Part shown: one piece after another, positions 22,904 through 50,100 of the stretch | How the letters are laid out: every line of letters starts with the position of its first letter | How positions within the stretch are numbered: the first letter of the stretch is position 1 | Assembly (NCBI GenBank): GCA_963922205.1 | Contig: CAWUHX010000004.1 | Coordinates: 1,178,001-1,242,000, forward strand | Origin: Romanomermis culicivorax | Lineage: Eukaryota > Nematoda > Enoplea > Mermithida > Mermithidae | Length of the DNA: 64,000 bases | Direction: 5' to 3' | Position numbers and translations under genes: made by a program | The notes under the pieces: model-generated | What the model saw: only the letters and a program-made list of their open reading frames with translations | What the model was told of the DNA's origin: nothing | Database searches by the model: none

Positions 22904-23101
22904 AGAATGTCACGTGCCGCTCAATTCTCCAACGTCACGTGATCCTGATCATGTCGACATTTCGTTATTTTTCATGTTTTGTTTATTACTCGAACATGCT
23001 TCTGTTTATTTCATTTTTACACATGCATTTTACGTTCGTTTTTATAATTTTCATGCATTTCTATGTTTCGTTTTGTTGCATTTTTATTTCTTTACAAACG
23101 C

Positions 23102-23434
23102 GGGCTACAGTAGGCCCTTTAGCTAAAAACTTCCGCCAGTCGTGCTCCACGAGCACATGGCTATTTTTGGTGCGCTCACGCACCTCTTATCATCAAAAAT
23201 TAGCGTCGTTTTTGTTACGCAAAACGACTAGCTAAGAAGTTTTAGCTAAAGACGTTCATATGCTTAGCATAGGCACTGCAGCCGGCCTCAGTGCTAAACG
23301 CATGTGAATGAAAAATGTCTATGTGCTCATAGGCATCTTCTGCATCGCGTCTAGCTGCAGAAGTTAGCTTGAGCGCCGAGAAACTCCGCCCAAGCTGCAG
23401 CTGTAGCCAAACATGTCCTTAAAAGGACATGTTT
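23102..23434 (+). promoter_or_regulatory. Dense run of stem-loops in the LTR, first part enclosed by a 16-bp stem
   Basis: An outer stem pairs 23117-23133 (CTTTAGCTAAAAACTTC) with 23236-23251 (GAAGTTTTAGCTAAAG) with one bulged A. Inside are perfect hairpins GTGCTC-CAC-GAGCAC (23142-23156), GGTGCG-CTCA-CGCACC (23169-23184) and GTCGTTTT-8 nt-AAAACGAC (23205-23228), giving a cloverleaf-like fold. Downstream come GCACTG/CAGTGC (23273-23294), CTTCTGCA/TGCAGAAG (23337-23363), AGCTTG/CAAGCT (23366-23396) and AAACATGTCCTT-AA-AAGGACATGTTT (23409-23434). Both LTRs share it. Its position fits a structured R/leader RNA, but transcription was not shown and no known RNA family was recognised. Confidence 0.7.
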
Positions 23435-23511
23435 CTTTAGTTTTTCGCTCATTCTTGGGTTCACCAAGCTCCGATTCGGTTGTTGTAACTTCGCGTCCGC
23501 CGCTCTGCTCA

Positions 23512-23570
23512 ATTTGCATATTTTTATACTCGACTGCGTCCGCCGCCTATTATTCTAAATAAATTTGCAT
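23512..23570 (-). promoter_or_regulatory. Two perfect octamer (POU-type) motifs in the LTR
   Basis: ATTTGCAT, the reverse complement of the octamer ATGCAAAT, occurs at 23512-23519 and 23563-23570, each just after a GCGTCCGCCGC word. Octamers are bound by POU-domain factors in animals. Function here is inferred from sequence only. Confidence 0.45.
23558..23563 (+). terminator. Candidate polyadenylation signal AATAAA
   Basis: AATAAA lies in both LTRs (38258-38263 in the 3' copy), about 125 bp after the stem-loop run, which would fit the end of R. No cleavage site is known. Confidence 0.4.
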
Positions 23571-23837
23571 ACCCTTGCATTTCTTACTGCGTCCGCCGCT
23601 CACCGCCTACAGTACCCCGCTGCCCATCAGTGCCAGGTGTCCGACCGCCCCGGTTCGTGAATTAAACGTTGGAGTTTCGCCTCCCGCTCGCTTCCGCTCC
23701 CTCCCGCTCGCCGCCGCTCGCTGCCGCTCGCCGCCTAGGACGTTTGAGGATCGCATTCCCCGCTCCCAGTGCCAGAAGACCGAAAGCATCCAGGGACTTG
23801 CCGCCCGTTGCGTTGTAATCGCTTGAGAAACAGGACT

Positions 23838-23845
23838 AGGTGAGT
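23838..23845 (+). promoter_or_regulatory. Consensus 5' splice donor in the LTR (AG|GTGAGT)
   Basis: CTAG|GTGAGT at 23836-23845 is a near-perfect donor in the U5 part of the 5' LTR. Splicing from here could remove the long leader or make subgenomic messages, as in retroviruses with a leader donor. Acceptor candidates exist shortly before gag (for example GTCTCAG near 27841), but none is proven. Confidence 0.45.
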
Positions 23846-24364
23846 CTTCTCAGGGGATTATTGTTATTTGTGGGTTATTTGTTGGGAAATCCTTCCTAAG
23901 TCGGTTTCCCAAGGTCTCCACAGATAAGTAGGGCCTCCACCTCTCAGGTTCGGGCTAAAAGGGGCTGTCTGGTTCATAATCGGGTCCCATAATTTAGGTC
24001 ATTTTACGGGTGACCCTGTCCCCACTCTCACTGAGTAGGACTCGGGGATTGTCGCACCTAGCCTGGCAGCGTTGTCCATTACCCTACAGCAAGACCCCAA
24101 GGACATCCCAAGAGAACCAACTATAGACCTCTCTATAGCCACCATTTGCCAGGTTAGGCCCCCAACGCCAACTTGGGAAGCCTGGGGAAAATGCCAGTAT
24201 CCATCAGGAGTCACAGCCTATTACTCACTGTAATAGGATCAATCTGATATGGTTCACCATCAATGTGACGTCTAAAACACGGTATTACCTGATGAGATAC
24301 CCAAACCTCTCCAGCTCTCCCAAGATAAACCTGTCATACACGTGACAAGGCGTAAAATGTGACA

Positions 24365-24383
24365 TGGCGAGGCTGGAAAATCG
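24365..24383 (-). promoter_or_regulatory. Primer-binding site
   Basis: TGGCGAGGCTGGA starts immediately after the 5' LTR and begins with TGG, the complement of a tRNA CCA end. The matching tRNA would end TCCAGCCTCGCCA. The tRNA species was not identified. Confidence 0.7.
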
Positions 24384-25500
24384 ACCTTAAGTCTGGCACT
24401 CGCCCTTAAGTGTAAATCTTCACCCTTGGGTCGGAACTACCCCCAGGTCGGGTCAACTCCCATTTTAAGTCGGACAAGCCCCCTTAAAATTGGGTACTAG
24501 CCATCCAATAAGTCAGAGACCCCCCCCCAGATTCGGGTTTACTGCCTAATGGGTCGGGAATGTCCCTTATTTCGGATTACCGCTACAGTAGGTCGGATAC
24601 CTCCCCTCAAGTCGCGTATTATTACTGTAAATCGGAAATTTTTCCCGTGCCACCAAGACTTATTACTGTAGGTCGGGAATTTCTCCCTGAACATCAGATT
24701 TAATTACTATAAAACGGGATTTGCCCTTACGAGTGATCTAAATGTGATCTATATGTGTAAATAATTATCTCATGCGTGTGTATAACCCCCTATGAGTAAT
24801 AAATCCCCTCTGAGTCGAGTTATTTATCCCCAGAGTCGTGTTATTTGTCCCAGAGTTGAGTTATATATCGAGTATTCTGTATTTCTCCTCTGACTCACTC
24901 TGTACATTCCACAAACTTAGTCTGTGTTGTAAACTACCTTATCTACTTCTTTTCCCTTATTCCCCCCCTTCTCTAATCCTGGGTGGTATACTGTAGCCCT
25001 CCGGGTGGGTGCCATTACAGTACGCCTGTGCCCATTCCCGTACTGTAACTACAGTATACCCATACGCGGTACTGGTATCACAGCTGTAGGGGTTTACGGC
25101 CTCTCCTGATTTGGTGGTCCGTGACCCCATGATACCGTACACCCTCCACGTATGATTCTGGACGTCATACGTGGCTGCGATTTGTTAATTGTGTACAGTC
25201 TTTTTGTACGTCGGCGGAAACTGTCGGAATTGCTCACTTTTCCGGCCCCCAAAAAAATTTTACACCGACTGTTTACACATTTAACACGCGTATGTCCAAA
25301 TCTCGTATTCCCCGTCTTCGGTTCTTTTATTTTCCCTTTCCCTTTCTCGGTTAACTGAGGGGTGTCAACAAAAAAAAAAAAAAAAAAAAAAAAATTTTTT
25401 CTTTTTCCGACGCCACCGCTACAGTATGACACCCTTACATAAGTTTCTCTTTCTTTTTCATTTCTACTTACTGTAAGGTCTGATTCTTCCATTCTCCGGT
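24384..25500 (+). repeat. Retroelement leader, part 1: degenerate GTCGG and GAGTCG repeats
   Basis: From about 24390 to 24720 a unit of roughly 30 bp recurs, each with a GTCGG or GTCNG word followed by a CCC-rich stretch. At 24790-24870 three copies of GAGTCG(A/T)GTTATTTAT-like units follow. A 25-A run lies at 25370-25394. No gene is supported. Confidence 0.5.
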
Positions 25501-25539
25501 TGTTGCATCTAGACCATAGACTTTACGGGTCATGCTCTT

Positions 25540-26185
25540 TGACGTCAGCAACAACAACGTTACGGGTTGTTGTTGTTGTGTGGTTCAACCCCACGGATGC
25601 AACCACTGACGTCTGCAACAGCCGCTTCACTTGCTGTTGCTTTAAGGGGTGGGTAGCCCTCCGGGTTCTACTCCTGACGTCAGCAACCGACATTACGTGT
25701 TGTCGTTTAAGTTAACACTCCAGCAGTAATGACTTCTGACGTCTGCAACAAGTGAAGCCAACGTTGTTGCGACAGATTCGGCTGGTTCTCTGCACCCCAT
25801 CTGTGACGTCAGCAATGGTGACGCACCGTGTCACTATTCGACGATGTGCGACCCTCGGTTCCACCTTTTGACGTCAGCAACGGCACCATCACGTGTTGCT
25901 GTATACCGATAGCTGGCTTCAGGGCCCTATTGCTGACGTCAGCAATGACAATGTATCATGTTCTCGCAGCAGGAATTGAGGTTACATGATCCTATTTCTG
26001 ACGTCCGCAACGGTAACATTACGTGCTACTGCAGGGGTTCTGTCGGCCTTAGGCACGCACCCCTGGCGTCTGCAACTGCGACATGATACTTGGATACTCT
26101 TATCCCAGGCACCTGCAGTCAGCACCAAGGTCATGTGTTGGTTCATACCCCCTACCTTTTGACGTCCGCACCAGGTTACTGTCGG
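25540..26185 (+). repeat. Retroelement leader, part 2: 11-unit array on TGACGTCAGCAAC
   Basis: GACGTC(A/T/C)GCAAC or a close variant starts at 25541, 25608, 25676, 25738, 25805, 25870, 25935, 26000, 26065, 26115 and 26161, a period near 65 bp that shortens at the end; an isolated copy is at 26499. Most units then carry a GTTGC/GTTG partner that can pair with GCAAC, so each unit can form a hairpin. TGACGTCA is also the palindromic CRE/ATF site. Whether it acts as RNA structure or DNA enhancer is unknown. Confidence 0.7.
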
Positions 26186-27950
26186 CCCTATGAGTATTCC
26201 ACTTGAGTTGTAGGTGGTCGCTGGCGCATGGTCCTATCACCTACCTCTCTTGTCCAAGGGTTTTGTGTGTCCGGGGGCTGATGCCTGGGAAACATCAGTC
26301 CACATACACACACCACCTGAGATGCTCGCTAGTCTGCGTACTGGTCAGGTTGTCCGCCCGGGTAGCGGCACTGTTGATCAGCACGTGGCTGTTTTCAAGC
26401 TTTAACTGCAGGTTTGAACGAGTTACACTCGGCCTCAGCTGGGTTGGTTGCTTGACTCGTGTAGACGTAGGCATTTGCAGTCGGTACTGCCTGTGTCTGA
26501 CGTCTGCAAGGGTTCGGCAATCTTCTTGTAAATTTCTTATCTAATTTCACTCATTCTCTTTCATCTCATCGAGCTGTCATACATAGATCTTCTTTAGTGT
26601 CCCCGCCGTAGTGGTTCCCAAGGGACTGCGGCACAGCCTCCGGTTGGGCCTAGAGTGTATAGGACCCCCTGTCATATTACATTCACTCGAACGCCTTCGT
26701 TAACTGGCTTAACGATGCCCGCGTTAGAGTCGCCACTGACCCAGAGTCCGCCTCCGCGGTCCACCCTCTATTAGTCATGTAAATAATAGGCACCGTTGAG
26801 TCCGCCTCAGCGAAGGTATTGAGTACGCCTCGATACATACTTTACACTCATATTCAATCAGGGACACCTTGTACCCGTGATCCCTTAGATGTTTTCGGGT
26901 GCGCCCTCAAAACATCCAGAGTATTTCATTTTAACTGACTGAGTGTGTCAGAATAGCACCCTTGGTACCCGTGCTCCTTCCCTCTTCTACTGTGTGACCT
27001 GCGAACCTCACTTCATCTCAGTGATCGGCAAACCCGGCCACCAGCTGTGTATAATACTCCTGAAGAGTGTCCGTTCTGTTCGGAATGCGGGCTCCCGTTT
27101 CGGACACGGCTGTAAGTTACTTGCGAATGTCGTCCAGCACGGAACCTCCTGTATAGTCCGTCTCACTATGCAGAGATCGCAATCGCTCCTGGCGAGTGAG
27201 GCCCGTTGTGTAACTGCGCGCCCCCTTTGCGTAACTGGGTTTGTAAATTAGTTTTGTCCCTATTTATTGCTCCCTCTTAAGTTCATTTTCAGTTGACCCC
27301 TATCCTTTTGCACCTCATGCCACTTTATGCGCTACTCCTGGTGAGTAGGATCTTGCCGGCTACATGTCCGCCTCGCCCCAAGGTTTGTAAACTAGTACAG
27401 CGGTCGAACCTCCAGGAAAAATCCCTCCTGAGCGGGTTCATCCGTCGCCTCATCTTTTCGGCAGGAAAAACCGCCTCTTCTCTACCTTCACATTTGATCT
27501 TCTGTCCTCCTCATCTATTCTAATTGTCAGGTCCAGGCCCCAATCCTACATTTTGGTCGGGATCGATTCCCCCATATCTCAGGCCATGCCTCTGTCCATC
27601 ACGGGCGACCAGATAAATTCCCTTCTGCGTCACCCTGATGTACTCTGATCTTACATCTTATAATCCTATTCCATTCTAGCTCCCTTTCCGTGGTCGCTAG
27701 TCTTAAGCTAAATCAATTTACGTCACAAACGCCGTCGCGCACGCGTTTTCCGAATTCACGCGCTCTTTCGCCGCGAATTCAAAAATAGTACTCACTTTCA
27801 TTTTACACAATAGAGACACCCCGTCGTTCCTGCCGTCTCAGTACCCAGCCTGTACAGACCAGTGAGCCACTCTCTATTCACTTTGACTTAATTGCTTCAC
27901 GGGCAAGGACGTCTGTTCTAATCACCTTACGGGAAAACGAACCCTCGGAC
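26186..27950 (+). other. Retroelement leader, part 3: no feature recognised
   Basis: The sequence is GC-richer than the flanks, with scattered short open frames that lack known domains. The frame that becomes gag is open from 27789 but has no ATG before 27951. Confidence 0.4.
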
Positions 27951-29693
27951 ATGAAGTCGGAAGCTGATCTCCCTTCACCGATCGAGAACAAAGTCCAGGC
28001 AGCATTTGAGAATGCTCTTGGACCCCTCAACCAAAAGTTAGAGGCCATGAATGGTCGGAGGCACCCTCCCGTGTCCAGCTTTATGGCCCCTCCCACCTTC
28101 TCCGGTGCTTTTGGTGAGTCTATCACCGATTTTATGTCGCATCTTACTCATTTCTTTACACTCCAGGGTGTAGGCGAAACGGATCATGCGTATAAAATCG
28201 CCTTTCTGGAGTCATGCCTCACGGGTCCTGCTCTTGCCTCCTACCGGGACTTTAGCAGTAGCACTCCGATACCTACCCGCTACGAAGAGTTTACGGCTTT
28301 TCTACGGAGAGATTTTCCGGTAGGGCCCGACTCTGATCTGCATCAGCAGCTGATCCAAGATCGACTGCAGAAGCCGACAGAGTCCGCGATAGTCTACCTT
28401 GAGCACCTCAAGAGACTATCCAGGGTAGCGTATCCAGATCTCGCGACGGATGTCCGAGATTCTATCATCAAACCTATCTTTTTGCGGGGACTGAAGCCGG
28501 TCCTCCGAGATAGTATCAAGTTTAGGGAGTTCACGACTCTTGAAGAGACACTCAAGGCAGCCTGTTACGCAGAATCCCAAATCTTTCGGGACGAGATCCG
28601 GTACACTGCTCCATCTAACGCCGTTTTCTCTTCAGAACCTAAACACGCCGGATATAATCCCGATATGCCTAACAGAAGCGCAAACAGTCGTCAGAGCAAC
28701 GCTCCAACGTCGTCATCCTCCGCCGATGAGGTTCGCCGCTTGAAACAGGAAATGGCCAGGCTCACGGCCCACGTAGCGAAGCTCACGGCCCAGCAACGTG
28801 CACCCACGCCAATCCAACAGACGCCGCCTCCACAGCCGTCGACACCAAATCAGTCCGCCGGGCGACGCTCGTCAGGAGCACACCTTCAAACGTGCTCCTT
28901 CCACGGACTGTGTACACATAGCGACGCCGACTGCCGGGCCCAGCGTCCCACCGGTGCCGCTCCCGGTAACAACGCCGCTAACGGTGGTCGCTGTTATTTT
29001 TGCCGTACACGTGCCCACCCCACGGACCGATGTGATAGGCCATGCCCTCATTGTCGTCAAGTGCGAGTGCACCGATCAACTGCCTGTCCGCAGCGCAATC
29101 CGGCAAACACGGGTGAGAATGTCTACCAAGATACTGGTTATTCTTCCCAGGGGACAAATGTGTATCATCAGAGAAATGGTTATCACCCTCCCAACGGGAT
29201 AGGAAACCAATATCGGCAGCCCATACGCCGCAACAACGCCGTTGGAGCTACCGATGGCCCTCCTCATCCAGATCCTCTTGACCTGGATGATGAGGCACTT
29301 GCTGAACACCTGACAGATTCTTCACAACAGTGTTATCCTGTCTGCGTAATCAGTATTGGATTTTCAGTGGTCCAAGCAGCCCAGGTACCCGTACCGATGA
29401 ACGTATCGGACATACCGCTGCCACCACCACCACCAAAGTATGCGATGCCGGTCACTCTGGACCCCTCGACGACACCGCAGTTTGTTGGCCACGCTAACAT
29501 TCTCGCATTGTATCGCATTCCTAAAATTAAGACTGCCGAGCCAGCTCCGGCCGCGAATACGACGTCTTCGGCGCCCGGCCCACATCGTCCCTCCAGGACC
29601 ACGGCCTTCGATCCCCACGGATTCGGCTACGGAAGTCCTCGACCAGGTCGAGCCCATGAATTTGTCAGGTATACTACCTTCTTCTTCAGGTGA
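27951..29693 (+). CDS. gag: Gag (capsid/nucleocapsid) of the LTR element
   Basis: 580 residues from the first ATG in the open frame. Residues about 45-215 match the retrotransposon Gag capsid pattern (FxxHLTHFFTLQGV..., IAFLESCLTGPALASYRDF, LKRLSRVAYPDLA). A zinc knuckle C-X2-C-X4-H-X4-C starts at residue 348 (CYFCRTRAHPTDRC). A second, C-X2-C-X5-H-X4-C, follows at once (CPHCRQVRVHRSTAC), and an upstream CSFHGLCTHSDADC module resembles a third. A Pro-rich region follows, and TGA at 29691 ends the frame. The last 30-40 residues (from about 29590) look out of character, while the +1 frame there looks protein-like, so the switch into the downstream frame may occur before the stop. Confidence 0.92.
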   Translation: MKSEADLPSPIENKVQAAFENALGPLNQKLEAMNGRRHPPVSSFMAPPTFSGAFGESITDFMSHLTHFFTLQGVGETDHAYKIAFLESCLTGPALASYRDFSSSTPIPTRYEEFTAFLRRDFPVGPDSDLHQQLIQDRLQKPTESAIVYLEHLKRLSRVAYPDLATDVRDSIIKPIFLRGLKPVLRDSIKFREFTTLEETLKAACYAESQIFRDEIRYTAPSNAVFSSEPKHAGYNPDMPNRSANSRQSNAPTSSSSADEVRRLKQEMARLTAHVAKLTAQQRAPTPIQQTPPPQPSTPNQSAGRRSSGAHLQTCSFHGLCTHSDADCRAQRPTGAAPGNNAANGGRCYFCRTRAHPTDRCDRPCPHCRQVRVHRSTACPQRNPANTGENVYQDTGYSSQGTNVYHQRNGYHPPNGIGNQYRQPIRRNNAVGATDGPPHPDPLDLDDEALAEHLTDSSQQCYPVCVISIGFSVVQAAQVPVPMNVSDIPLPPPPPKYAMPVTLDPSTTPQFVGHANILALYRIPKIKTAEPAPAANTTSSAPGPHRPSRTTAFDPHGFGYGSPRPGRAHEFVRYTTFFFR

Positions 29694-29699
29694 TCCTAG

Positions 29700-30491
29700 A
29701 GTAGGAACCAGGAATCTATCTCAGTCCACGACTCTATCGATTTCTTGTTCACAGCGCCATCGCCCGTCCAAGACGCGATGTTGGCCATCTGGTCAGTCGA
29801 CCTGGCCAAGAAATACCCGCATTTGCCGTGGACTCTCCTCAACGAGCCATCAAATGTCGAAGCGCTCACGGCTGCCGACGTCGTGCTTGCAGCACCCGTC
29901 TCAATGCGCCTTTTACGACCCGACGTCGCCCGACGGGCACTCGAGTTCATTGCCAATGGGACTATCACCATCTCGCCCGTCGAGAAGTTCTTATTGGACG
30001 GAGAGCCATCCTCGCCTTCAGTCGATGCCGTCCGCCGAGCAGTCGAACAGGCCAGCCGGATCCTCCTGCCTGCTGCCGCCGCTACATCACCGGCAGCAGC
30101 GCCAACTGTTGCCGCGACATCACCAACGAAAATGGATATTACTGCTTCCTCGCCCCCGGCCAAGGAATCCGCAAATGATCCTACACCGCCGGCAACAGCC
30201 CAACATATATCGTCGGCAACAGCCCAGGTCAAGTCGCCGGCACCAGCCCAAACGACATCTCCGACCGCCGCGACCAAGTCGCCCGTCGTCGAACACATGG
30301 CCGTCGACGAGACCTTACGTCCGGTTAACGAAGATGTCAGCGTCGTTGAGGAATCCCCGTTCCCAACGGCAGTCGCCCCACGGTCGCCAAAAATCGGTAT
30401 CCTCCGGGAAATCCACCCGTGCGGTGGATTGGTCCTCGATTTCCCCGGCCAGGAACCAATCTCGTCCGACAGCGACGAAGAAGAAATCTGA
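29700..30491 (+). CDS. Ala/Pro-rich ORF between gag and the envelope-like region
   Basis: It is in the gag frame, separated from gag by TGA (29691) and TAG (29697), and open to the TGA at 30489-30491. The first ATG is at 29778, giving 237 residues. The first third is helix-like ([35 protein letters not shown]), followed by an Ala/Pro/Thr/Ser-rich middle and an acidic end (SSDSDEEEI). The overlapping +1 frame is also open here but has a shadow-like Arg/Ser/Pro/His composition, so this frame is the better coding candidate. It could be a Gag extension reached by frameshift, splicing (CAG|GTATAC near 29668 to TTCACAG|CG near 29753 keeps a frame) or read-through, or a separate accessory protein. 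No family was recognised. Confidence 0.6.
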
Positions 30492-32340
30492 CACTGCCCC
30501 TCAGGCCAGATTTGTGAAATTCAGTGAACACTTACAAATTACGTTTGTACAGTTGTTTTTGACAATAAAGTTGACCTTGGTAGCATCACTGTTTCTAGGG
30601 GTGAGTTTGTCAGCACCGGCGGCTCAGTATCAATTTTGCGGTCTCTCAAGAAGCGGACACCCACTTGAGTTACCCCAGCGTGTAGAGTGTAAACCACCGC
30701 AATCTTCATGGAGCCCGCGGCGCATGAATGTTACGGTGTATGTCCCTAGCTCAGACCCGATTACAGCCACAGCGTGGAAATGCACATTGCGCTCCCGCAA
30801 AGTCTGCACCAACACTGGTTTCTTCGGCTCTAGGGGCATCACTGCAGACGTCATTACCACTCAGCACTTAGGGCCTGCGGCATGCACGCTAGCACATCGC
30901 ACTAAGATGTTTGGTTCACAAAAACTTGTCGGCATTCGCCCTGGCTTTTATAGCACGAACCAAACATTGGAAGTGATGTACGAATGGTGCTGCAGCGACG
31001 TCTGCAAGACAGTGACTAACCTCTTCATCGAGGAGGGACAAGTCGCTTCGTGGGACGGCACTACGGCCCTAAGCACCTTAGGCGATGTAGGTGGATGCAG
31101 TCCCACTGCAGGCCAGTGCACTACTCTAGACGGGGTCATTGTCTGGCCTGCACAAAACTTCACGGCGCGGTGTCATTATCACCCCAAGGGAAATTACACT
31201 GCGTCCATGTCAGGGAACCACGTCATCATCGATGATCTACAGGTTGCCCTCAAGATCCCGGGAAACTCCCGTGTCTTCCAACTGTGCCCAGAACTACGTT
31301 CCACCACAGTCCGGACGGATCAGGGTCTTCTCCTTCGCATCCACGGGAGATACAATTTGACCCAAAACTTGTTCAGAGTGGCAACGGACAGCCGTCCCGA
31401 TCCTGTCAATGCCAAACTGAACTATCTGGCTCAGCAGATCAAGGAGTCGGAAATTAACGGTTTCCGGTTCACGTGGCTTGAGCTTTGCTCTCACGCTCAA
31501 CGCTATCTTGATCTGACTTGGCAGTTGCTTCGCTTCGACCCTACCCTGGGTGCCCGGGCATTCCTCCAGAGGAATGACCTGACGGCAGAATTCACAGGCG
31601 ATGCACTGACAATATGGCCGTGTCAGAAGGTCAAGGCCACCTACGTTTACCACTCGTACCGGGTGGGGAACGTTTGCTACAAGTACTTACCTGTACAGGT
31701 TGGCGGCACCATCTACTTCGCCACCCCCGGTGGTCCGGATCTCATTAAATCTAGCCCAATTGTGCCGTGTCATCACCACTTTACAGGGATTTTCCGAAAT
31801 CACTCGGGCTGGTTTACTGAGTCTGGCGAGGTCCATGTGAGCCACATCCCACTGGAACTCTTCTGGAAGCAGCGCTTCAACATCACTCACTTTGAGGCAC
31901 CGGCGCTCTTCCATGACCAGTTGGCGATGACCCCTTCAAACTTTGCCTTCTTTAAACAGTACGTTTACAAGACTGAGCAAATTGAAGCGGTATTGAACCG
32001 GCTGGTAAACTTTACCGCTGGTCTATTCCTGCAACCAGACGCCATCTACCAGGCCTTTGCAGGGGTAGGAACCGACATCAAGGCCTCTCTGGAAGGTGTC
32101 GGTTTGGCAGCAAACCATGTTATTACGGGTCAACAACACACCCTCGCCCAGGGCTTGCATGCTGTCCTGAGCGGGCCGGTCCAGTTGATCTTTAACATCC
32201 TAATTACCCTGACAGTGCTGATCGGTGCTGGATACCTTGCCTATCTTGGTGTATCTTATTATCTCAGCTACCGTCTGCGGAGCAAACAGGTCCGGTTTGT
32301 CAGCCGTTTCTCCCCGTTGGGTCTTTACCGTAAAGTCCAA
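30490..32340 (+). CDS. Envelope-like glycoprotein module, in frame upstream of protease
   Basis: Part of the long frame ending at 37089; residue numbers count from 29440. A hydrophobic signal-like segment (about 369-392, [20 protein letters not shown]) ends in SLSAPAA. The next 520 residues hold 16 cysteines and eight N-X-S/T sequons (NVT, NQT, NFT, NYT, NLT, NHS, NIT, NFT). One transmembrane segment lies at about 915-941 (32182-32262), then a short basic tail leads straight into the first retropepsin. There is no in-frame ATG just before the signal peptide, so expression needs frameshift, splicing or internal processing. The class is uncertain: the Cys and spacing pattern near 31670-31860 gives a weak impression of a class III, chuvirus-like glycoprotein, but a phlebovirus-like origin was not excluded. 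Confidence 0.75.
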
Positions 32341-35300
32341 CACTGGATCGGTTTTCACTACGTGCAAAATGATGTGCCCTCCCAGCTTGACCGAATCACA
32401 CCGTGCTTCGTCGTGCTGCTGGACACCAAGGAAACTCCTGCTTTCCTTGACACGGGTTGCCCACGCACTATCATTAGCCAACGTCTTCATAAGGCCTTGG
32501 CTAAAGAAAGTCCGAAGGCGGTCATGGCGTTCCAGCAACATCACAACTTTAACCCATTGATGAGCATCAATGGTAAAGCCGTTCATACCATCCTTTCGGG
32601 ACCATATGAAATCATGTTGCCCGGAAACCGCCAGCCGAACACACGGATCGATGTACATCTCCATGTGTGCAAGACCACGTCTCCCTTCTGGGCACCTGTT
32701 GACCTCATACTCGGACTGGACTTCTTAGAACAGTTCAAGAACATTATGTTTGACTACCAACGTAATGTTTGTCGGCTGGACGCGGTAGAATTACCCCTCC
32801 TGCTGACCACGCCGGAGATTGACCAGATCGACCCCTGGTGGGAGAACACCCGTGCTCTCTCGCGAAATTCACACAGGTCGGGATCACGATCGCGGTCCAG
32901 GGCTTCGTCCATCTCTCGGCCACACTCACGGGCCTCCTCACTTGCCTCATCACGTGGGTCAACTAGGGGATCTCGAGCCTCTTCTAGACGGGCAAGTCGT
33001 CACCTGTCGACCTTGCACGGGTCAGGTTGCCCTCGACCTCCGCCTGGAACCTCTCCAGTTACGCTAGAGAAGGGCCGATACCGTGAGCCAAGTGATTCAG
33101 ATGCTCCGACATCACCCGTGCCAAACGCGCCTCCGCTATCGGACACTGAGGTTGAATCACTAGGAGCAACCCAGAGTTCGAAGGATCACTCAGACCACGT
33201 ACTAACGGTGCAGGATGAGTCCACCCTTCTCAATGACCCGGAACCCTCCGTCGGATACGCTCTAGTAGGCCTCCTACGTCGTACGGGACTGCCGATTCCA
33301 AAGCGGTCCGGTAAGACCAAACATGCTAGTGGTGCCACCACACCTGATTCCGGTCATGTGGTCACGGCTTTCTACCCAAATGATATTTGGACACCCCATA
33401 TCAAAGTTCTCCTCAACAACTGGGTAGAAGCGAAGGCACTGGTCGACACAGGAGCTGTTTTCTCACTCCTGGACCACAAGTTAGCGGCCCAGCTGCCCAA
33501 CTTGTCACTATCACCAACCAGGGCACGCCCTATCGCAGCCAACGGGTCCCCGATCCCACTGCTAGGAGCAGCCTACATCACAGTTACAGTGGCTGATGTC
33601 TCTGAACGGATTCAGGTCCAAATACAGGAGAACTGTTCAGCTGAACTGGTCCTTGGAACCAACTTCCTCGGCCGGTTCAATTGTGTCAGTTTGAACTGGG
33701 AGAAATCTTTCCTCCAATTCAAAGAGAGTAGAATCCCCTGTGACGGTCTCATCCACAGCCCACCTTCTGCCCGCGGCGCTTTGCCCCTGAAGGACTTGGT
33801 CATTCTGGAGCCTCGCTCCCTGACACGATTCACTGTACCTGTCCCACCAATCTATACGAACGTGCCTGAGGTGGCCTTCTTTCCGAAGCACCTCACCGGA
33901 TCTCAACGACACGTATATTTTGCTGGAAGCGTGAGTACCGTGACCAACGGTCACATACCACTTCAGGTAGTCAACCCGAGTACTCATTCCGTGGTTCTCT
34001 ACCCGCACACGACCATCGGTCATGTGCAAATGCATAGTGAGCCCTCACGGGAATCACCGGTCGACTCAGACACCGTCCTCGATCGTCAGTGGGTCGAGGC
34101 CAATGCTGTAATCTCACCGGACATCTCCCCTCGGGACCGGGCAGCCTTAATCGATCTGCTGGTTGCATACACCGACCTCTATGCTCTTGATGAAAAGGAC
34201 ACAGGTTCCACTGATCTCGTCCAGCATGAAATTAGCACGGGCGATGCCCGCCCAGTCCGCCGTTTTCCTTACCGGTCATCACCTAAGGAAAAGGATCTCA
34301 TCATGCAGGAGGTCAAGGCGCTCCAGGAGAAAGGTATTATTCGGCCCAGCACGTCTCCGTGGGCTACTAATACTGTCCTGGTGCGCAAGAAAAACGGTTC
34401 TCACCGTATGTGTGTTGACTTTCGTGGTCTTAACGGGGTCACGAAAAAGGATGTCTACCCTCTCCCGCGGATAGATGACATCCTCGACACACTCAAGGGT
34501 ATGAAGTATTTCACTACCCTTGACCAGGCTAACGCTTATTGGTCAATCCCGATTGCCGAGGCCGATAAGGAAAAGACGGCTTTTAATACGCCTATTGGAC
34601 TTTACGAATTCAATTACTTGCCTTTCGGTTTATGCAATGCGCCAGGGACATTTCAACGCCTTATGGACCTCCTCCTTACTGGAATCCAATGGCGCACAGT
34701 TCTGACTTATCTCGACGACATTTTGGTGTTCGGGAACTCTCACACCCAAATGCTTGAGCGCCTGGCAGATGTGTTCACCCGTCTTCGCCGGGGTGGAATG
34801 AAGCTCAGACTGAGCAAGTGCAAATTCTCGCACTCAGAGGTAGAATACCTAGGCTATCGCATCTCACAGAGCGGCCTAGAACCTGACCAAGCCAAGCTGG
34901 CCGCCGTCCAAAACCTACCCATTCCACAAAACGCCAAAGACATCAAGTCCTTCCTAGGCCTCGTGTCTTACTACAGGCGTTCCATCCCTGGTTGTGCCCG
35001 GCTCAGCGAGCCACTCACCAAGCTCTTACGGAAGGAAACTACTTTCCAGTGGTCAAAACCTCAGCAGGAGGCGTTCGATGAACTCCGCCGCCTGCTGACC
35101 AACCCTCCTATCCTGCGCCATCCGGACTTTTCGAAATCCTTTATCCTTCAAACTGATGCGAGTATTTCGGGGATAGGAGCGGTTCTTAGCCAGTTAGACG
35201 AACATGGATACGACCATCCTGTCGCGTACGCCAGCCGAGGGTTCACAGCGGCCGAGAAAAACTACTCCATTACAGAACTGGAGACTCTCGCTGTTGTCCA

Positions 35301-37089
35301 TTTCGTCAAGCACTTTCGACCATACCTCTTCCAGCACGAGGTGGTCGTCCAGACTGACCATACCGCGGTCAAAGCAGTGTTGGAGAAGCCTAACCCCTCT
35401 GCTCGGATCGCTCGGTGGGGACTCGCGCTCGCCGAATTCAAACTGACAATTCGGCCGCGAAAAGGTCAGTCTAATGGTAATGCTGACGCATTATCACGCC
35501 TGCCGGATCCTAACTCCCTCACCGGTCAGAGTATTGATGATACTCCCCTCTACAGACCTGAGGGGCACGTTATGATGATCACCGATGGTGCGCAGCACCT
35601 GGCGCGATCCAGGACCTTGACCGATGGTGTGCAGCACCTGGCGCGTTCAAGTAATTCAGCACCGATCACTGTTGGCGCGGAGCGCCCGGTACGATCAGAG
35701 TCTTATGCCGAGATATCCGTCGGTGCGCAGCACCCAGACCTTTTCGCTGCTCAGCTGGAGGATCCGGAGTTAGCCGACATCATTCGCTCTCTTAAGCCTC
35801 TGGGCGACCAGAATGATGTGAGAGGCTACCATCTGTTGGATAACGTTCTTCAGAAATGGACAGGCGAGTCCAATAAGATCGTCATACCCAGATCCATGGT
35901 TACTACCATTATCCGGGCTCATCACAATGACATCTTAGCTGGACACTTCGGTGCTAAACGTACTGCGCGGCTCATTGCTCGCAGATACCACTGGCCCTCC
36001 CTCAGTCGGGATGTCAAGTCCTTCTGTCAGCGGTGTGATCTTTGCCAACGGAATAAGCCCGCTCGACAGAAAACCACTGCGACCCTGAAACCTATCACCA
36101 TCACGGGACCGTTTCACCGGGTAGGTGTCGACTGCATGGGACCAATGACCACTAGCGAAGCTGGCAACCGTTTCATCGTAGTCTTTATCGACCACTTTAC
36201 GAAATGGGTCGAGGCTTTTGCTACTCCGGACATCACTGCGCACACCATAGCCCGGCTGTTTGTAACGCAAATTGTCTGCCGGCACGGGGCACCGCAGATT
36301 CTTCAATCAGATCGTGGCACTGATTTCACATCAAAACTGATGGCTGAGATCACTGCGATCTGCGCAACGAAGAAAATCCACTCTACCGCCTATCACCCGA
36401 TGACCAACGGCGAAGTGGAAAGAGCTAATCAGACGCTAGCCACACGGCTACGTATGTATGTTCATCAAGGACATACTGATTGGGATGAACACCTACCATA
36501 CGCTGTGTTTGCCGTCAATATCAGCATGAATGAGTCAACAGGGTACTCGCCCTTTGAACTCATGTACGGTCGCACACCCATGCTCCCTGTTGATGCCGCG
36601 CTCTCATTCAACCCTCCGGCCCATATCATTAATGTTTCCTCATATGATATGGAGGTCAAACGTCATTTCACGAATGCGTTAACCTTAATCCAGAGTCGGA
36701 TTGAGAAAGCACAGGAAGCCTATGCACGGTCGTACGACCGGAAGGCACATGATGTCTCGTACAAAGTAGGGGATCAGGTGCTCAAACTGCGCACCTCCAG
36801 CAAACGTGGACTCACTCCTAAATTGCTGCCCATCTACGATGGACCCTACCTTGTAACAAGTGTGGCATATCCCAATGTCACACTTCGTCTCGAGATGGAT
36901 CAGGAAGACACTGTACATGTCAACCAGCTTCGACTTTACGTGTCCCCTGACAAACCAAGTGAAGCAGAGGATACACCTCCCACTTCACAGGCAACAGATT
37001 CGGCACCCTTATTGTATCCCTCAATAAGCCGGGACTTTACACCGAATCTGATTGACCCACATCTTGATGCAGAGGTCCCCGACCCGTAA
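32341..37089 (+). CDS. pol: Pol: retropepsin 1, SR-rich linker, retropepsin 2, RT, RNase H, integrase
   Basis: Continuous with the envelope-like module in the same frame (stop at 37087-37089). Retropepsin 1 has DTG at residues 1004-1006 and LILGLDF at 1089-1095. An Arg/Ser-rich linker spans about 1120-1170. Retropepsin 2 has DTG at 1336-1338 and LVLGTNF at 1403-1409. RT spans about 1595-1830 with YLDD at 1757-1760. RNase H follows with TDAS (D1906) and GNADALSRL (about 2013-2021). A linker near 2047-2100 has four imperfect repeats of TDGAQHLARS. Integrase has a zinc-binding HHCC head (about 2162-2210) and the triad D2231, D2291, E2327 (35 residues between the last two), then GPYLVTS. No chromodomain is evident. 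The enzymes look intact. Confidence 0.93.
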   Translation, partial: HWIGFHYVQNDVPSQLDRITPCFVVLLDTKETPAFLDTGCPRTIISQRLHKALAKESPKAVMAFQQHHNFNPLMSINGKAVHTILSGPYEIMLPGNRQPNTRIDVHLHVCKTTSPFWAPVDLILGLDFLEQFKNIMFDYQRNVCRLDAVELPLLLTTPEIDQIDPWWENTRALSRNSHRSGSRSRSRASSISRPHSRASSLASSRGSTRGSRASSRRASRHLSTLHGSGCPRPPPGTSPVTLEKGRYREPSDSDAPTSPVPNAPPLSDTEVESLGATQSSKDHSDHVLTVQDESTLLNDPEPSVGYALVGLLRRTGLPIPKRSGKTKHASGATTPDSGHVVTAFYPNDIWTPHIKVLLNNWVEAKALVDTGAVFSLLDHKLAAQLPNLSLSPTRARPIAANGSPIPLLGAAYITVTVADVSERIQVQIQENCSAELVLGTNFLGRFNCVSLNWEKSFLQFKESRIPCDGLIHSPPSARGALPLKDLVILEPRSLTRFTVPVPPIYTNVPEVAFFPKHLTGSQRHVYFAGSVSTVTNGHIPLQVVNPSTHSVVLYPHTTIGHVQMHSEPSRESPVDSDTVLDRQWVEANAVISPDISPRDRAALIDLLVAYTDLYALDEKDTGSTDLVQHEISTGDARPVRRFPYRSSPKEKDLIMQEVKALQEKGIIRPSTSPWATNTVLVRKKNGSHRMCVDFRGLNGVTKKDVYPLPRIDDILDTLKGMKYFTTLDQANAYWSIPIAEADKEKTAFNTPIGLYEFNYLPFGLCNAPGTFQRLMDLLLTGIQWRTVLTYLDDILVFGNSHTQMLERLADVFTRLRRGGMKLRLSKCKFSHSEVEYLGYRISQSGLEPDQAKLAAVQNLPIPQNAKDIKSFLGLVSYYRRSIPGCARLSEPLTKLLRKETTFQWSKPQQEAFDELRRLLTNPPILRHPDFSKSFILQTDASISGIGAVLSQLDEHGYDHPVAYASRGFTAAEKNYSITELETLAVVHFVKHFRPYLFQHEVVVQTDHTAVKAVLEKPNPSARIARWGLALAEFKLTIRPRKGQSNGNADALSRLPDPNSLTGQSIDDTPLYRPEGHVMMITDGAQHLARSRTLTDGVQHLARSSNSAPITVGAERPVRSESYAEISVGAQHPDLFAAQLEDPELADIIRSLKPLGDQNDVRGYHLLDNVLQKWTGESNKIVIPRSMVTTIIRAHHNDILAGHFGAKRTARLIARRYHWPSLSRDVKSFCQRCDLCQRNKPARQKTTATLKPITITGPFHRVGVDCMGPMTTSEAGNRFIVVFIDHFTKWVEAFATPDITAHTIARLFVTQIVCRHGAPQILQSDRGTDFTSKLMAEITAICATKKIHSTAYHPMTNGEVERANQTLATRLRMYVHQGHTDWDEHLPYAVFAVNISMNESTGYSPFELMYGRTPMLPVDAALSFNPPAHIINVSSYDMEVKRHFTNALTLIQSRIEKAQEAYARSYDRKAHDVSYKVGDQVLKLRTSSKRGLTPKLLPIYDGPYLVTSVAYPNVTLRLEMDQEDTVHVNQLRLYVSPDKPSEAEDTPPTSQATDSAPLLYPSISRDFTPNLIDPHLDAEVPDP

Positions 37090-37607
37090 CTCAGGATGCA
37101 CTCTCTTCACTGTCCCCGCTTACGGACGAGGACGTCCTTTTTCGAAGGACCGCTGTGCCCCTCATGAAGTATCCACTCTTGTCCATGCTGGATCTTAGCG
37201 GATAGAAGAGAGCGTTCAGCAACCTAAGCGTCACGCCTTAGGCGCATCCTCACGCGATAGCCTACACCTCTCAGGGTGCATCCTCTGCGATAGCCCGACA
37301 ATCTGCACCTCACTGGGCGCATCCTCTGCGATAGCCTACATCTTGCCCTGAAAATTTTTCTTTTCTGTGTTCCAGACCTTCGCACAGGATATTCGATGTC
37401 GGCAACTTCACGCATCAACAACCTCCAGTCACCATATCACCGAACGAATTACGATCAAAGAAGGCTTCATCCGCCGACAACCCAACGGACCTATTCGACC
37501 ACTCTCGCCGTCACACCTTGGAATGACCTACGACCACGGACACGCCGTATAAAACCTCACTACTGACCACTGCAAGGACGAGGACGCCCTTTTTCGAAGG
37601 ACCGCCG
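37090..37607 (+). repeat. 3' untranslated part of the LTR element with short repeats; no clear polypurine tract
   Basis: A unit with GCATCCTC(N)GCGATAGCC is repeated three times at about 37242, 37280 and 37319. A 33-bp motif starting GGACGAGGACG and containing GTCCTT-TTTCG-AAGGAC occurs at 37124-37156 and again at 37576-37608, the second ending at the LTR boundary. The usual polypurine tract next to the LTR is missing; only AAGGACGAGGACG about 20 bp upstream is purine-rich. Confidence 0.6.
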
Positions 37608-39064
37608 TGTCACGTGCCGCTCAATTCTCCAACGTCACGTGATCCTGATCATGCCGACATTTCGTTATTTTTCATGTTTTGTTTATTACTCGAACATGCT
37701 TCTGTTTATTTCATTTTTACACATGCATTTTACGTTCGTTTTTATAATTTTCATGCATTTCTATGTTTCGTTTTGTTGCATTTTTATTTCTTTACAAACG
37801 CGGGCTACAGTAGGCCCTTTAGCTAAAAACTTCCGCCAGTCGTGCTCCACGAGCACATGGCTATTTTTGGTGCGCTCACGCACCTCTTATCATCAAAAAT
37901 TAGCGTCGTTTTTGTTACGCAAAACGACTAGCTAAGAAGTTTTAGCTAAAGACGTTCATATGCTTAGCACAGGCACTGCAGCCGGCCTCAGTGCTAAACG
38001 CATGTGAATGAAAAATGTCTATGTGCTCATAGGCATCTTCTGCATCGCGTCTAGCTGCAGAAGTTAGCTTGAGCGCCGAGAAACTCCGCCCAAGCTGCAG
38101 CTGTAGCCAAACATGTCCTTAAAAGGACATGTTTCTTTAGTTTTTCGCTCATTCTTGGGTTCACCAAGCTCCGATTCGGTTGTTGTAACTTCGCGTCCGC
38201 CGCTCTGCTCAATTTGCATATTTTTATACTCAACTGCGTCCGCCGCCTATTATTCTAAATAAATTTGCATACCCTTGCATTTCTTACTGTGTCCGCCGCT
38301 CACCGCCTACAGTACCCCGCTGCCCATCAGTGCCAGGTGTCCGACCGCCCCGGTTCGTGAATTAAACGTTGGAGTTTCGCCTCCCGCTCACTTCCGCTCC
38401 CTCCCGCTCGCCGCCGCTCGCCGCCGCTCGCCGCCTAGGACGTTTGAGGATCGCATTCCCCGCTCCCAGTGCCAGAAGACCGAAAGCATCCAGGGACTTG
38501 CCGCCCGTTGCGTTGTAATCGCTTGAGAAACAGGACTAGGTGAGTCTTCTCAGGGGATTATTGTTATTTGTGGGTTATTTGTTGGGAAATCCTTCCTAAG
38601 TCGGTTTCCCAAGGTCTCCACAGATAAGTAGGGCCTCCACCTCTCAGGTTCGGGCTAAAAGGGGCTGTCTGGTTCATAATCGGGTCCCATAATTTAGGTC
38701 ATTTTACGGGTGACCCTGTCCCCACTCTCACTGAGTAGGACTCGGGGATTGTCGCACCTAGCCTGGCAGCGTTGTCCATTACCCTACAGCAAGACCCCAA
38801 GGACATCCCAAGAGAACCAACTATAGACCTCTCTATAGCCACCATTTGCCAGGTTAGGCCCCCAACGCCAACTTGGGAAGCCTGGGGAAAATGCCAGTAT
38901 CCATCAGGAGTCACAGCCTATTACTCACTGTAATAGGATCAATCTGATATGGTTCACCATCAATGTGACGTCTAAAACACGGTATTACCTGATGAGATAC
39001 CCAAACCTCTCCAGCTCTCCCAAGATAAACCTGTCATACACGTGACAAGGCGTAAAATGTGACA
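37608..39064 (+). repeat. 3' LTR (1,457 bp)
   Basis: Same length as the 5' LTR. The six differences fall at offsets equivalent to 22955, 23270, 23532, 23590, 23690 and 23732, all C/T or A/G changes. Two of them lie in the CCGCTCG-rich array. Confidence 0.97.
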
Positions 39065-47128: not shown

Positions 47129-50100
47129 TCATCCACGAGATCTGCATTGTTTGAACCATCTAAACTGATCAGCATTTTCTCGCAAGCAATAAGCCAATTC
47201 AACGTCACATTGGCAGATGCAATTATTACAATCACTTTGTCTTTCTGAAAAAGAGAGAGCATAGCAAAGCTTTACATGGAAAATATAGTTACAGTAAGAC
47301 GTTAAACATCTATATGGTTAACTGACTTTTGCATAGGGCACGCTTTGTACGTATGTCACACATAACGCTGTAGAAAGCAATATGGGAATAGCAACGTAGG
47401 CCGAATAAACCCCTTTTGTCATGACACTTGTCATAACAGTTGTCATGCGTTTGGCAACATCTGAAATATTGAAAATATGAAGGTAAAAAATGAAGAGTGT
47501 CTTAGATATTGGACAAAATGAATATTGAGTATAAATGGCATGGAAATTATATAGAATTTTTGGAGTGAAAATAAATTTGAAAAATAGGATGCAGCCAGTA
47601 GTTGAACCTGAGTTACCAGCGTTCCAGGCTGATGTCCTCACCACAACACCACACCACACCATGAGGTGAACCCAGATTAAGGTGCTCCCGCAGGCTACGA
47701 TTTTTTAGCATACAACTCCAATGCTTGGTGTTCATGAACCTAGGACCCTCAGTAACTTCATTGATCAGTAGTTCAAAGCAGCAGGTATGCTGCTACTTGT
47801 CAAAGGTCCTAGGTTCACACCCACCAAGCATTGGAGTTGTATGCTAAAAAATCGTAGCCTAGGGAAGCACCTTAATCTGGGTTCACCTCATGGTGTGGTG
47901 GTCTAGTGGTGAGGACATCAGCCCCGAATGCTGGTAACGCAGGTTTGACTCCTAGCTGCACCCTATTTTTCTTAAAATGGCATATTTCAGAACAAGTACA
48001 GACTCTACTGGAACAGTACACTTCAAGTCATGTCTGAATCTGGGAGCTGTTGTATAAACATATGCAAGCCAACTTCAAGTTGCTAAAAGTGTTAGATATT
48101 CCACAAGCTGAATCTCAAAAACTTTATTTCGAGCATTTTGTGAAAGTTCCATAAACCACGATAACCTAAGCAATTTCATCCAAAAAATGGTTTACTTTCA
48201 TAGCAGTGATATACTCGTCTCTGTTCTGCTTCTTGGTGAATATATATTTCAAGCCAAATAATTAGTACAGGAATGATTTCACAGGTATGACGAGAATTTC
48301 AAACCTTTAGTAACTAGAAGTTAACCATATAAAAATTCACTTCATAGATCATACAGATTTTATATGCAATTTGTAGTGACCATAGTCAAATTACATTAAA
48401 ATGATAGACACAGTAATGATACAAAAAAGTATGTTTAATTTGACACATAAGTTGCAAATACTGACAAACGTTCTACTGTAGAAAAATGCCCAATTTCTTT
48501 ATGGCAAATGGACTCGGATAGATATGCGTAGACACATGATTGCTACCAGGAGTATTTTTACAATTGACCAGTGACTTGAAAAAAATTTTCAATTGTTCTT
48601 TCAGCTGCTCATGCACGAGAAAATTGTTTTTTATTTATCACAATAATGAACTTGAACCCTTAATCAATTTTACTTTTTATTTTTCTAAATTTTGAGTTTT
48701 GATGAGTTTGAATAACAAATTTATTATAAGTAATTATACTAAGGATTAAATTAACAATTAAATAAAATGGAATTAACAATTGAATTAAATTTAATTAGCA
48801 GTTAAATCGAAAAAATCAACAGTTGAATCAAGTAAAATTTACGCTGAAACCAAATTAACAATTAGACTAAATTCCCCATTAAATAAAAATTCACAATTGA
48901 ATTAAACTAACAATTGAATTAAATAAACAATTAAATCGAATAACCAATTATTTTAAATAACCAACTAAATTAAGTTAACAATTAATTAACTTAAAAATTA
49001 AATTAAAAATTAAATTACATCAACAATTAAATTACGTTAACAATTAAATTAAATTAAAAATTAAATTAAATTAACAATTGAATTAAATTAACAATTAAAT
49101 TAAATTAACAATTAAATTAAAAATTAAATTAACAATTATATTGAAAATTAAATTATTAATTAAATCAACAGTTAAATTAACAATTAAATTAACAATTGAA
49201 TTAACGATTAAATTAACAATTAAGATAACATATAAACTAACAATTAAATCAACATTTAAATTATCTATCGAAATAACAATTAAATAAACAATTAAATTAA
49301 CAGTTGAATTAACAATCAAATTAACAATTAAATCAACAATTAAATTAACAATTAAATTAACAATTGAATTAATGATTAAATTAGTAATTAAATTCACATA
49401 TAAATTAACAATTAAATTAACAATTAAATCAACGATTAAATCAACAATTAGATTAACAGTTAAACTAAAAATTAGATTAACAATTAAATTAACAATTAAA
49501 TCAACGATTAAATCAACAATTAGATTAACAGTTAAACTAAAAATTAGATTAACAATTAAATTAACAATTAAACTGACAATTAGATTAACAATTTAATCAA
49601 CAATGAACAATTAATTTAATAATTAAAGTGACAATTAGATTAACAATTTAATCAACAGTGAACAATTAATCTAACAATTAAATTAACGATCACAATCGAA
49701 AAATTAATAATAAATAAATCAAAATTCAAAAACAAACAGATTAATTGAGTCAAAATCAAAAAAATGAATAACAAATAAACTAAAACTCAAAAATGAATAA
49801 AAAAATTCAATTTTCAAAGAAGAATAGAATTAATTTAATCACAACCAAAAAATTGGTAATAAATACATTAAAGTTCAAAAATGAATAAAATTAATGGAAT
49901 CACAATCAAAAAATTGGTAATAAATATACTCAAACATAAATAAATTTAATTGGGATAAAAAAATTTTAGGCAAAAACTTAAATTAACAATTCTAGTAGGA
50001 AACTATATAAAAACAATATATATGTTTTTATATTAGATGTCTTTGAGAACTGTAACACGATATCTGCTTAGCACTGAAAGACTATATCTGCTTGGAATCG

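Follow-up and report, generated by a model that had tools for sequence, protein, structure and literature searches.

A class III-type envelope glycoprotein module between gag and protease in a nematode Ty3/gypsy-type element

Introduction

In metaviruses, the envelope gene (env), where present, lies downstream of integrase (ICTV profile, PMC7879559). The 64-kb window analysed here (Romanomermis culicivorax, GCA_963922205.1, contig CAWUHX010000004.1, positions 1,178,001–1,242,000; coordinates below count from its first base) contains a 16.2-kb long terminal repeat (LTR) element on the + strand (22908–39064). Between the stop of pol and the 3′ LTR there is no open reading frame (ORF) of 100 codons, so env is missing from its usual place; an envelope-like module lies instead between gag and protease, in the frame of pol. 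We consider it probable that this is a young, multi-copy Ty3/gypsy-type element that has kept a captured class III glycoprotein at this site and encodes a chain of Env, protease (PR), reverse transcriptase (RT), RNase H and integrase.

Results

An envelope module in the frame of pol

A stop-free frame of 2562 codons (29401–37089) encodes, in order, a signal peptide, an ectodomain, a single transmembrane helix, two retropepsin-like domains (PR1 and PR2), RT, RNase H and integrase. The ectodomain (~530 aa) contains 16 cysteines and eight N-X-S/T sequons, and the module matches the Pfam family Monjiviricetes_fusion (PF24664) with 54.5 bits against a cut-off of 27 (E = 6.6e-15). A preliminary description of this DNA had proposed such a signal peptide, Cys-rich ectodomain with sequons, single anchor and set of Pol enzymes in one frame, and had placed an envelope glycoprotein between gag and protease, in the frame of pol. 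Both proposals are borne out, the latter by the PF24664 match and by the same order in five of five further families and in metagenome proteins; the single retropepsin of that description is replaced by two such domains.

Other features are those of Ty3/gypsy elements (Metaviridae), namely LTRs, a target-site duplication, the order PR-RT-RNase H-integrase and a Ty3-type capsid, whereas env (30553–32247) precedes integrase (35884–36399), contrary to the rule for the family. The LTRs run from TG to CA, and a 4-bp AGAA repeat borders the element at either end. With six mismatches between the two LTRs of 1457 nt (99.59% identity, self-BLAST), the insertion must be young. The features are as follows.

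22908–24364, +: 5′ LTR, 1457 nt (self-BLAST; AGAA 4-bp flanking repeat)
24365–24382, +: presumed primer binding site, directly 3′ of the LTR, starting with TGG
27951–29573, +: gag, first ATG at 27951; out of the env-pol frame in the window copy
28119–28565, +: Ty3-type capsid in gag (PF19259, E = 1.3e-7)
~28893–29087, +: Cys/His zinc-knuckle-like region of gag
29760–30491, +: overlapping reading frame Y, open over 29700–30491 (pN/pS and codon-position variation)
30553–~30621, +: internal signal peptide of Env (hydropathy)
30613–32184, +: Env ectodomain, class III fusion-protein type (PF24664 match at 31405–31854)
32185–32247, +: single Env membrane anchor, then a basic stretch (hydropathy; sequence)
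32383–32830, +: PR1, extra retropepsin-like domain (DTG at 32449, ILG motif at 32704)
32875–33006, +: Ser/Arg-rich linker between PR1 and PR2 (sequence)
33406–33675, +: retropepsin PR2 (PF13975, E = 1.7e-8; DTG at 33445)
34381–34863, +: RT (PF00078, E = 3.3e-35; YLDD at 34708)
35050–35391, +: RNase H (PF17919/PF17917)
35884–36399, +: integrase (H2C2 zinc finger, E = 9.8e-22; catalytic core rve, E = 1.9e-9)
37087–37607, +: short 3′ region past the pol stop
37608–39064, +: 3′ LTR

PR1 and PR2 share 22% identity (E = 2e-4). The best Protein Data Bank (PDB) match of PR1 is Ddi1 (E = 0.0076), and its Pfam score is weak (E = 0.013). In the other families examined, the corresponding interval holds a single protease, with no second domain of the PR1 type.

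Copies, sister families and metagenome relatives

Searching the window's own assembly (359 Mb) at the protein level with the first 437 residues from 30490 gave 3790 first-look candidates, among which 96 places were scored, all 98–100% identical to the query. In 55 of these 96 copies, a single stop-free frame of 3090–3100 codons covers gag, env and pol. The window copy, in which gag is out of frame, carries a small gag deletion near 29574 that is absent from all 20 other copies fetched and limits its open frame to 2562 codons. The preliminary description had asked whether a spliced or frameshifted message joins gag to the env-pol frame; in other copies gag already lies in that frame.

A PF24664 scan of the same genome scored 68 matches out of 2320 candidates, all over the Pfam cut-off, and the 30 loci listed among them fall into five families, none being the window's own. 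One 8-kb stretch was fetched per family (L059–L063). The order gag, PF24664 module, protease, RT, RNase H is found in all five, followed by integrase in four (L063 being the exception), and all five gags match that of the window by BLASTP (E from 6e-10 to 4e-55). In L059 and L060 a single frame stays open from gag as far as the fetched stretch reaches; L061 is interrupted inside gag by a stop that is missing from both further copies examined; L062 has one stop between gag and env, its protease retaining DSG; and L063 is split across several frames.

Outside this genome, a search of 5.8 billion proteins, with candidates sized 0.55–1.75 times 1637 aa, found three metagenome relatives. The longest, P0005 (2490 aa), spans gag, env, PR, RT, RNase H and integrase; P0004 (1500 aa) extends from gag through env to PR, and P0003 (1424 aa) from env through PR and RT to RNase H. 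The env of P0005, used as a query against the protein database, matched itself alone, and none of 11 pattern matches in IMG/VR was confirmed as a relative. Env identity between families is 28–59%, the 16 cysteines are invariant across ten diverged Env sequences, and signal peptide and anchor lie 539–553 residues apart in all seven elements having both. Env and RT identities are correlated (Mantel r = 0.89, p = 0.00015, eight elements), the outcome expected if Env was gained once and then inherited with pol.

Sister families L060 and L063 carry the protease triad DCG in place of DTG/DSG. A profile search with env only returned a further protein, P0006 (536 aa), which has a signal peptide and an ectodomain of this type but differs at the C-terminus; listed apart from any polymerase, it is possibly a stand-alone or truncated Env.

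Kinship with class III fusion proteins

Besides PF24664, the window Env has a weak match to the Pfam Borna G family, and L062, L063 and P0006 have weak matches, below cut-off, to herpesvirus gB. The window module alone, searched directly against the PDB, matched no fusion protein. A profile of ten Env modules matched herpesvirus gB (E = 8.9e-6), and 31 of its 32 PDB matches at E ≤ 1 were gB (30 by name, plus KSHV ORF8, which is titled gB among the structural matches).

The profile search and structure prediction that the preliminary description had proposed for the ectodomain thus led to gB and to an AlphaFold model, built from five sequences, of low confidence (mean pLDDT 54.5, pTM 0.29), in which a helix is modelled at residues 264–308. 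Prediction from a single sequence had been useless (pLDDT 31). Foldseek with the low-confidence model gave 182 viral matches at E ≤ 1e-3, led by glycoproteins of rhabdo-, xinmo- and chu-like viruses, with gB and a nyamivirus glycoprotein within the first 20. It also gave 109 PDB matches; the 50 listed (48 titled gB, the other two a varicella-zoster virus glycoprotein) reach E ≤ 6.7e-12, but with TM-scores of ≤0.33 from a model at pLDDT 54.5. Identity in the structural matches was 10–18%. Such TM-scores limit the claim to class III kinship, with no detailed structure. On sequence and profile matches, the Env ectodomain is kin to class III fusion proteins, that is, to Monjiviricetes glycoproteins and herpesvirus gB.

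Selection on gag, Env and protease

The ratio of nonsynonymous to synonymous polymorphism (pN/pS) was taken from gag to the covered part of PR1 in 21 copies; of the 20 that had been added, 18 were picked as fully open. It was 0.238 in the capsid–nucleocapsid part of gag, 0.328 at the gag end, 0.103 in the Env ectodomain, 0.156 in the anchor and tail, and 0.129 in the covered PR1 part. Env is thus under the strongest constraint among the parts tested, and a codon-position test on the same copies agrees that env is under purifying selection. A pN/pS of 0.103 indicates that Env is in use as a protein.

A second reading frame over the gag–env linker

The linker between gag and env behaves differently. 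A frame at −1 relative to env-pol, here called Y, ends in an acidic tail (SDSDEEEI), and the linker has a pN/pS of 0.23 when read in Y, whereas the env frame gives 2.1 and the third frame 2.0. Judged by this variation, Y is a selected protein overprinted on the gag–env linker, which makes it a new gene printed over the linker in the window family. By analogy with the spliced, alternative-frame product of Cer1, it may be an accessory product. The frame that the preliminary description called uninterrupted is indeed open, but along the ~360 codons before 30490 it is not the selected frame from ~29760 on; the overlapping −1 frame is. In L059, from the gag knuckles to ~200 nt before the signal peptide, most of the variation is at third codon positions of the common frame, so that the gag frame running on towards env looks translated in that family.

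Y gave no BLASTP match at E ≤ 0.1 to any frame of the gag–env stretches of L059–L063 or to P0004 and P0005, had no Pfam match at E ≤ 1, and had one, meaningless, NCBIfam match; the lack of a BLASTP, Pfam or useful NCBIfam match ruled it out as a conserved linker domain. A 271-aa alternative frame of L061 (E = 0.083) proved unrelated to Y. A programmed −1 frameshift from gag into Y was rejected, there being no XXXYYYZ heptamer at 29400–29900, and an invariant run of 60 bases (29747–29809), seen in 21 mostly open copies, vanished when 44 copies were used. Avoidance of stops in the common frame of the linker at first stood at 1 against 6.5 expected (P = 0.009), a result biased because 18 of the 20 fetched copies had been preselected as fully open; with 18 less open copies added, it weakened to P = 0.03. 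The third frame gained 9 stops against 10.4 expected in 44 copies.

Routes of expression and rival explanations

No stop separates Env from Pol under either route considered here, as read from the frames themselves. The nearest in-frame Met lies 73 codons upstream of the signal peptide in the window, and six of eight elements have none within 35 codons before it, so Env needs either the start of Gag or a splice. Most likely the chain would start with Gag, genomic RNA being translated into Gag-Env-Pol; a spliced Env-Pol form may exist alongside it. Alternatively, Env(-Pol) could come from a spliced RNA whose short 5′ exon is linked to an acceptor lying shortly before the signal peptide; Gag and Env would then never form one chain in quantity, the long common frame would be a by-product, and Pol would still follow Env in frame. 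We take this alternative seriously while thinking it rather doubtful. TTTTCAG/TTTTACAG-type motifs are found, in phase 0, in L059, L060, L061 and L063 (the phase in L063 obtained by arithmetic from position); the TTTTACAG of L059 is unchanged in 11 of 12 other covering copies, with varying flanking bases, and the L060 motif in eight of ten. There is also a precedent in Cer1, whose CERV is made from spliced RNA with an exon in another frame (PMC10309623). The motif search was, however, post hoc and used a rough home-made score; the motifs of the window family are weak at this place (score 2.2–2.5), that of L062 is out of phase, and the L059 linker is constrained in the common frame upstream of the motif and not downstream. 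The candidate acceptors leave room for a spliced Env-Pol message, so that the presence of Gag in the chain is less secure than the joining of Env to Pol.

Two other explanations concern the module itself. That the glycoprotein is a chance insertion, or a chimera of assembly confined to one copy, merits practically no credence, given 96 scored copies, five further families and three metagenome proteins with the module before PR; the preliminary description had named an unrelated insertion as the finding that would overturn it, and an order common to families only 28–59% identical in Env, with Env co-diverging with RT, disposes of that. It is improbable, too, that the ectodomain is no longer fusogenic and has another role, for example as an assembly anchor at internal membranes or a shield against superinfection. 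The model is too low in confidence for fusion loops to be mapped, which leaves such roles some room, but the ectodomain is under strong purifying selection and keeps 16 cysteines unchanged across ten diverged sequences, which speaks against them.

Several observations weigh against a retained Env translated within a common gag-env-pol frame. The full open frame is absent in 41 of 96 copies of the window family. Among the sister families, the L062 and L063 copies are broken, gag and protease of L062 have weak Pfam scores (E = 0.026 and 0.029), and some gag or protease scores fall below the Pfam cut-off in L059, L060 and L061. Read in the common frame, the window-family linker is not under selection as protein (pN/pS 2.1) and avoids stops weakly, with 5 new stops against 10.9 expected (P = 0.03, 44 non-random copies) and, in the 26 copies that are not fully open, 4 against 8.1 (P = 0.08). 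In L059, position-3 bias is missing from the ~200 nt that immediately precede the signal peptide, and the linkers of L060, L061 and L062 have no clear bias or too few changes. Splicing is suggested by acceptor-like motifs, which in four of six families lie in phase 0 at 81–177 nt ahead of the signal peptide, and the Env model is of low confidence (mean pLDDT 54.5, pTM 0.29).

Discussion

Our preferred reading, a Ty3/gypsy-type element with a captured class III glycoprotein retained before its protease, draws on the gene order, the common frame, the selection on Env, its co-inheritance with RT and its class III kinship in sequence. The fusion glycoprotein would have been captured long ago, its relatives being the glycoproteins of rhabdo-, chu-, nyami- and bornaviruses as well as herpesvirus gB. 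Its signal peptide, whether it lies within a long chain or close to the beginning of a spliced one, would start translocation of the ectodomain into the endoplasmic reticulum, and the single anchor would halt transfer, leaving Env as the lumenal N-terminal part. The C-terminal PR-RT-RNase H-integrase part would stay in the cytosol, tethered under the membrane where Gag assembles, until the protease released the enzymes within a budding particle, on which Env would presumably act in fusion. Alphavirus and flavivirus polyproteins use internal signals after the capsid in a like manner. The membrane-anchored Pol precursor of the preliminary description fits the layout of signal peptide, ectodomain, anchor, basic stretch and enzymes, and may be made as one chain. 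We are about evenly inclined for and against a wider proposal, that of a nematode retrovirus lineage in which Gag, a class III fusogen and the enzymes form one transmembrane polyprotein, its anchor carrying Pol to the budding membrane and making Env incorporation and Pol packaging one act.

Errantiviruses and other env-bearing Metaviridae such as gypsy share with the window element a Ty3-type capsid, the order PR-RT-RNase H-integrase, LTRs and an env, but have env past integrase (PMC7879559), whereas here it stands before the protease in the gag-pol frame. Atlas virus of Ancylostoma ceylanicum (Belpaoviridae) likewise comes from a nematode, has captured a viral fusion protein and joins Gag, Pol and Env in one frame of 2828 residues, but is BEL/Pao, with a class II phlebovirus-like Env in its last 498 residues (PMC9094657). 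In the window element Env is N-terminal to PR, and no BEL/Pao family is among the Pfam matches listed. Anakin, from mosquitoes, is an LTR element with a captured chuvirus-type glycoprotein (PMC7642597), and differs in being BEL/Pao; a follow-up paper reports no clear case in which a Gypsy element captured such a glycoprotein (PMC10084718). Cer1, a Ty3/gypsy element of C. elegans, similarly has a long polyprotein frame with no stop between gag and pol, and a spliced accessory protein with an alternative-frame exon, but has no recognised envelope glycoprotein, and its extra ORF comes after pol (PMC10309623). In bdelloid elements, pol is followed by a paramyxovirus-like ORF3 (PMC5408684), and the Env of Lokiretroviruses is similar to Mononegavirales fusion proteins (PMC9040795).

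Herpesvirus gB and the Monjiviricetes glycoproteins, class III fusogens, share profile and fold matches with the Env module. To our knowledge, neither is embedded in a gag-pol frame. We found no account of an env placed ahead of protease and behind gag in the open literature (titles and abstract openings, with subscription papers mostly outside), which is not proof of absence.

The element breaks the gag-pol-env order used for Metaviridae and retroviruses, and the break is old and stable, no freak. It adds capture of a class III fusogen for Ty3-type elements, and a fusogen N-terminal to Pol would explain, simply and in a way that can be tested, how Env and Pol come to share a particle. Annotation that seeks env solely past integrase would overlook such elements.

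Other features of the element and assembly

The 3.4-kb leader between the 5′ LTR and gag (24365–27788) has short frames only, of ≤142 codons as judged by eye. In the 3′ region, a 41-nt direct repeat lies at 37255–37336, and a motif around CCTTTTTCGAAGGACCG occurs twice, once abutting the 3′ LTR where a plain polypurine tract would be expected. Outside the element, an imperfect 400-nt palindrome (47579–47971, 82%) encloses a tRNA match at 47892–47963.

Some Env matches in the assembly are spaced as if tandem elements shared LTRs: three lie 8365 bp apart in G000:C180 (404–17640), and two ~8.4 kb apart in G000:C25 (197813–206684). A nematode host is likely from the telomere-type repeats, but the exact nematode SL1 22-mer was not found in the assembly. 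TTAGGC is the nematode telomere repeat, and the assembly contains 25,934 overlapping matches to TTAGGC/TTAGGG-type repeats, those listed being nearly all TTAGGC and many of them internal to contigs.

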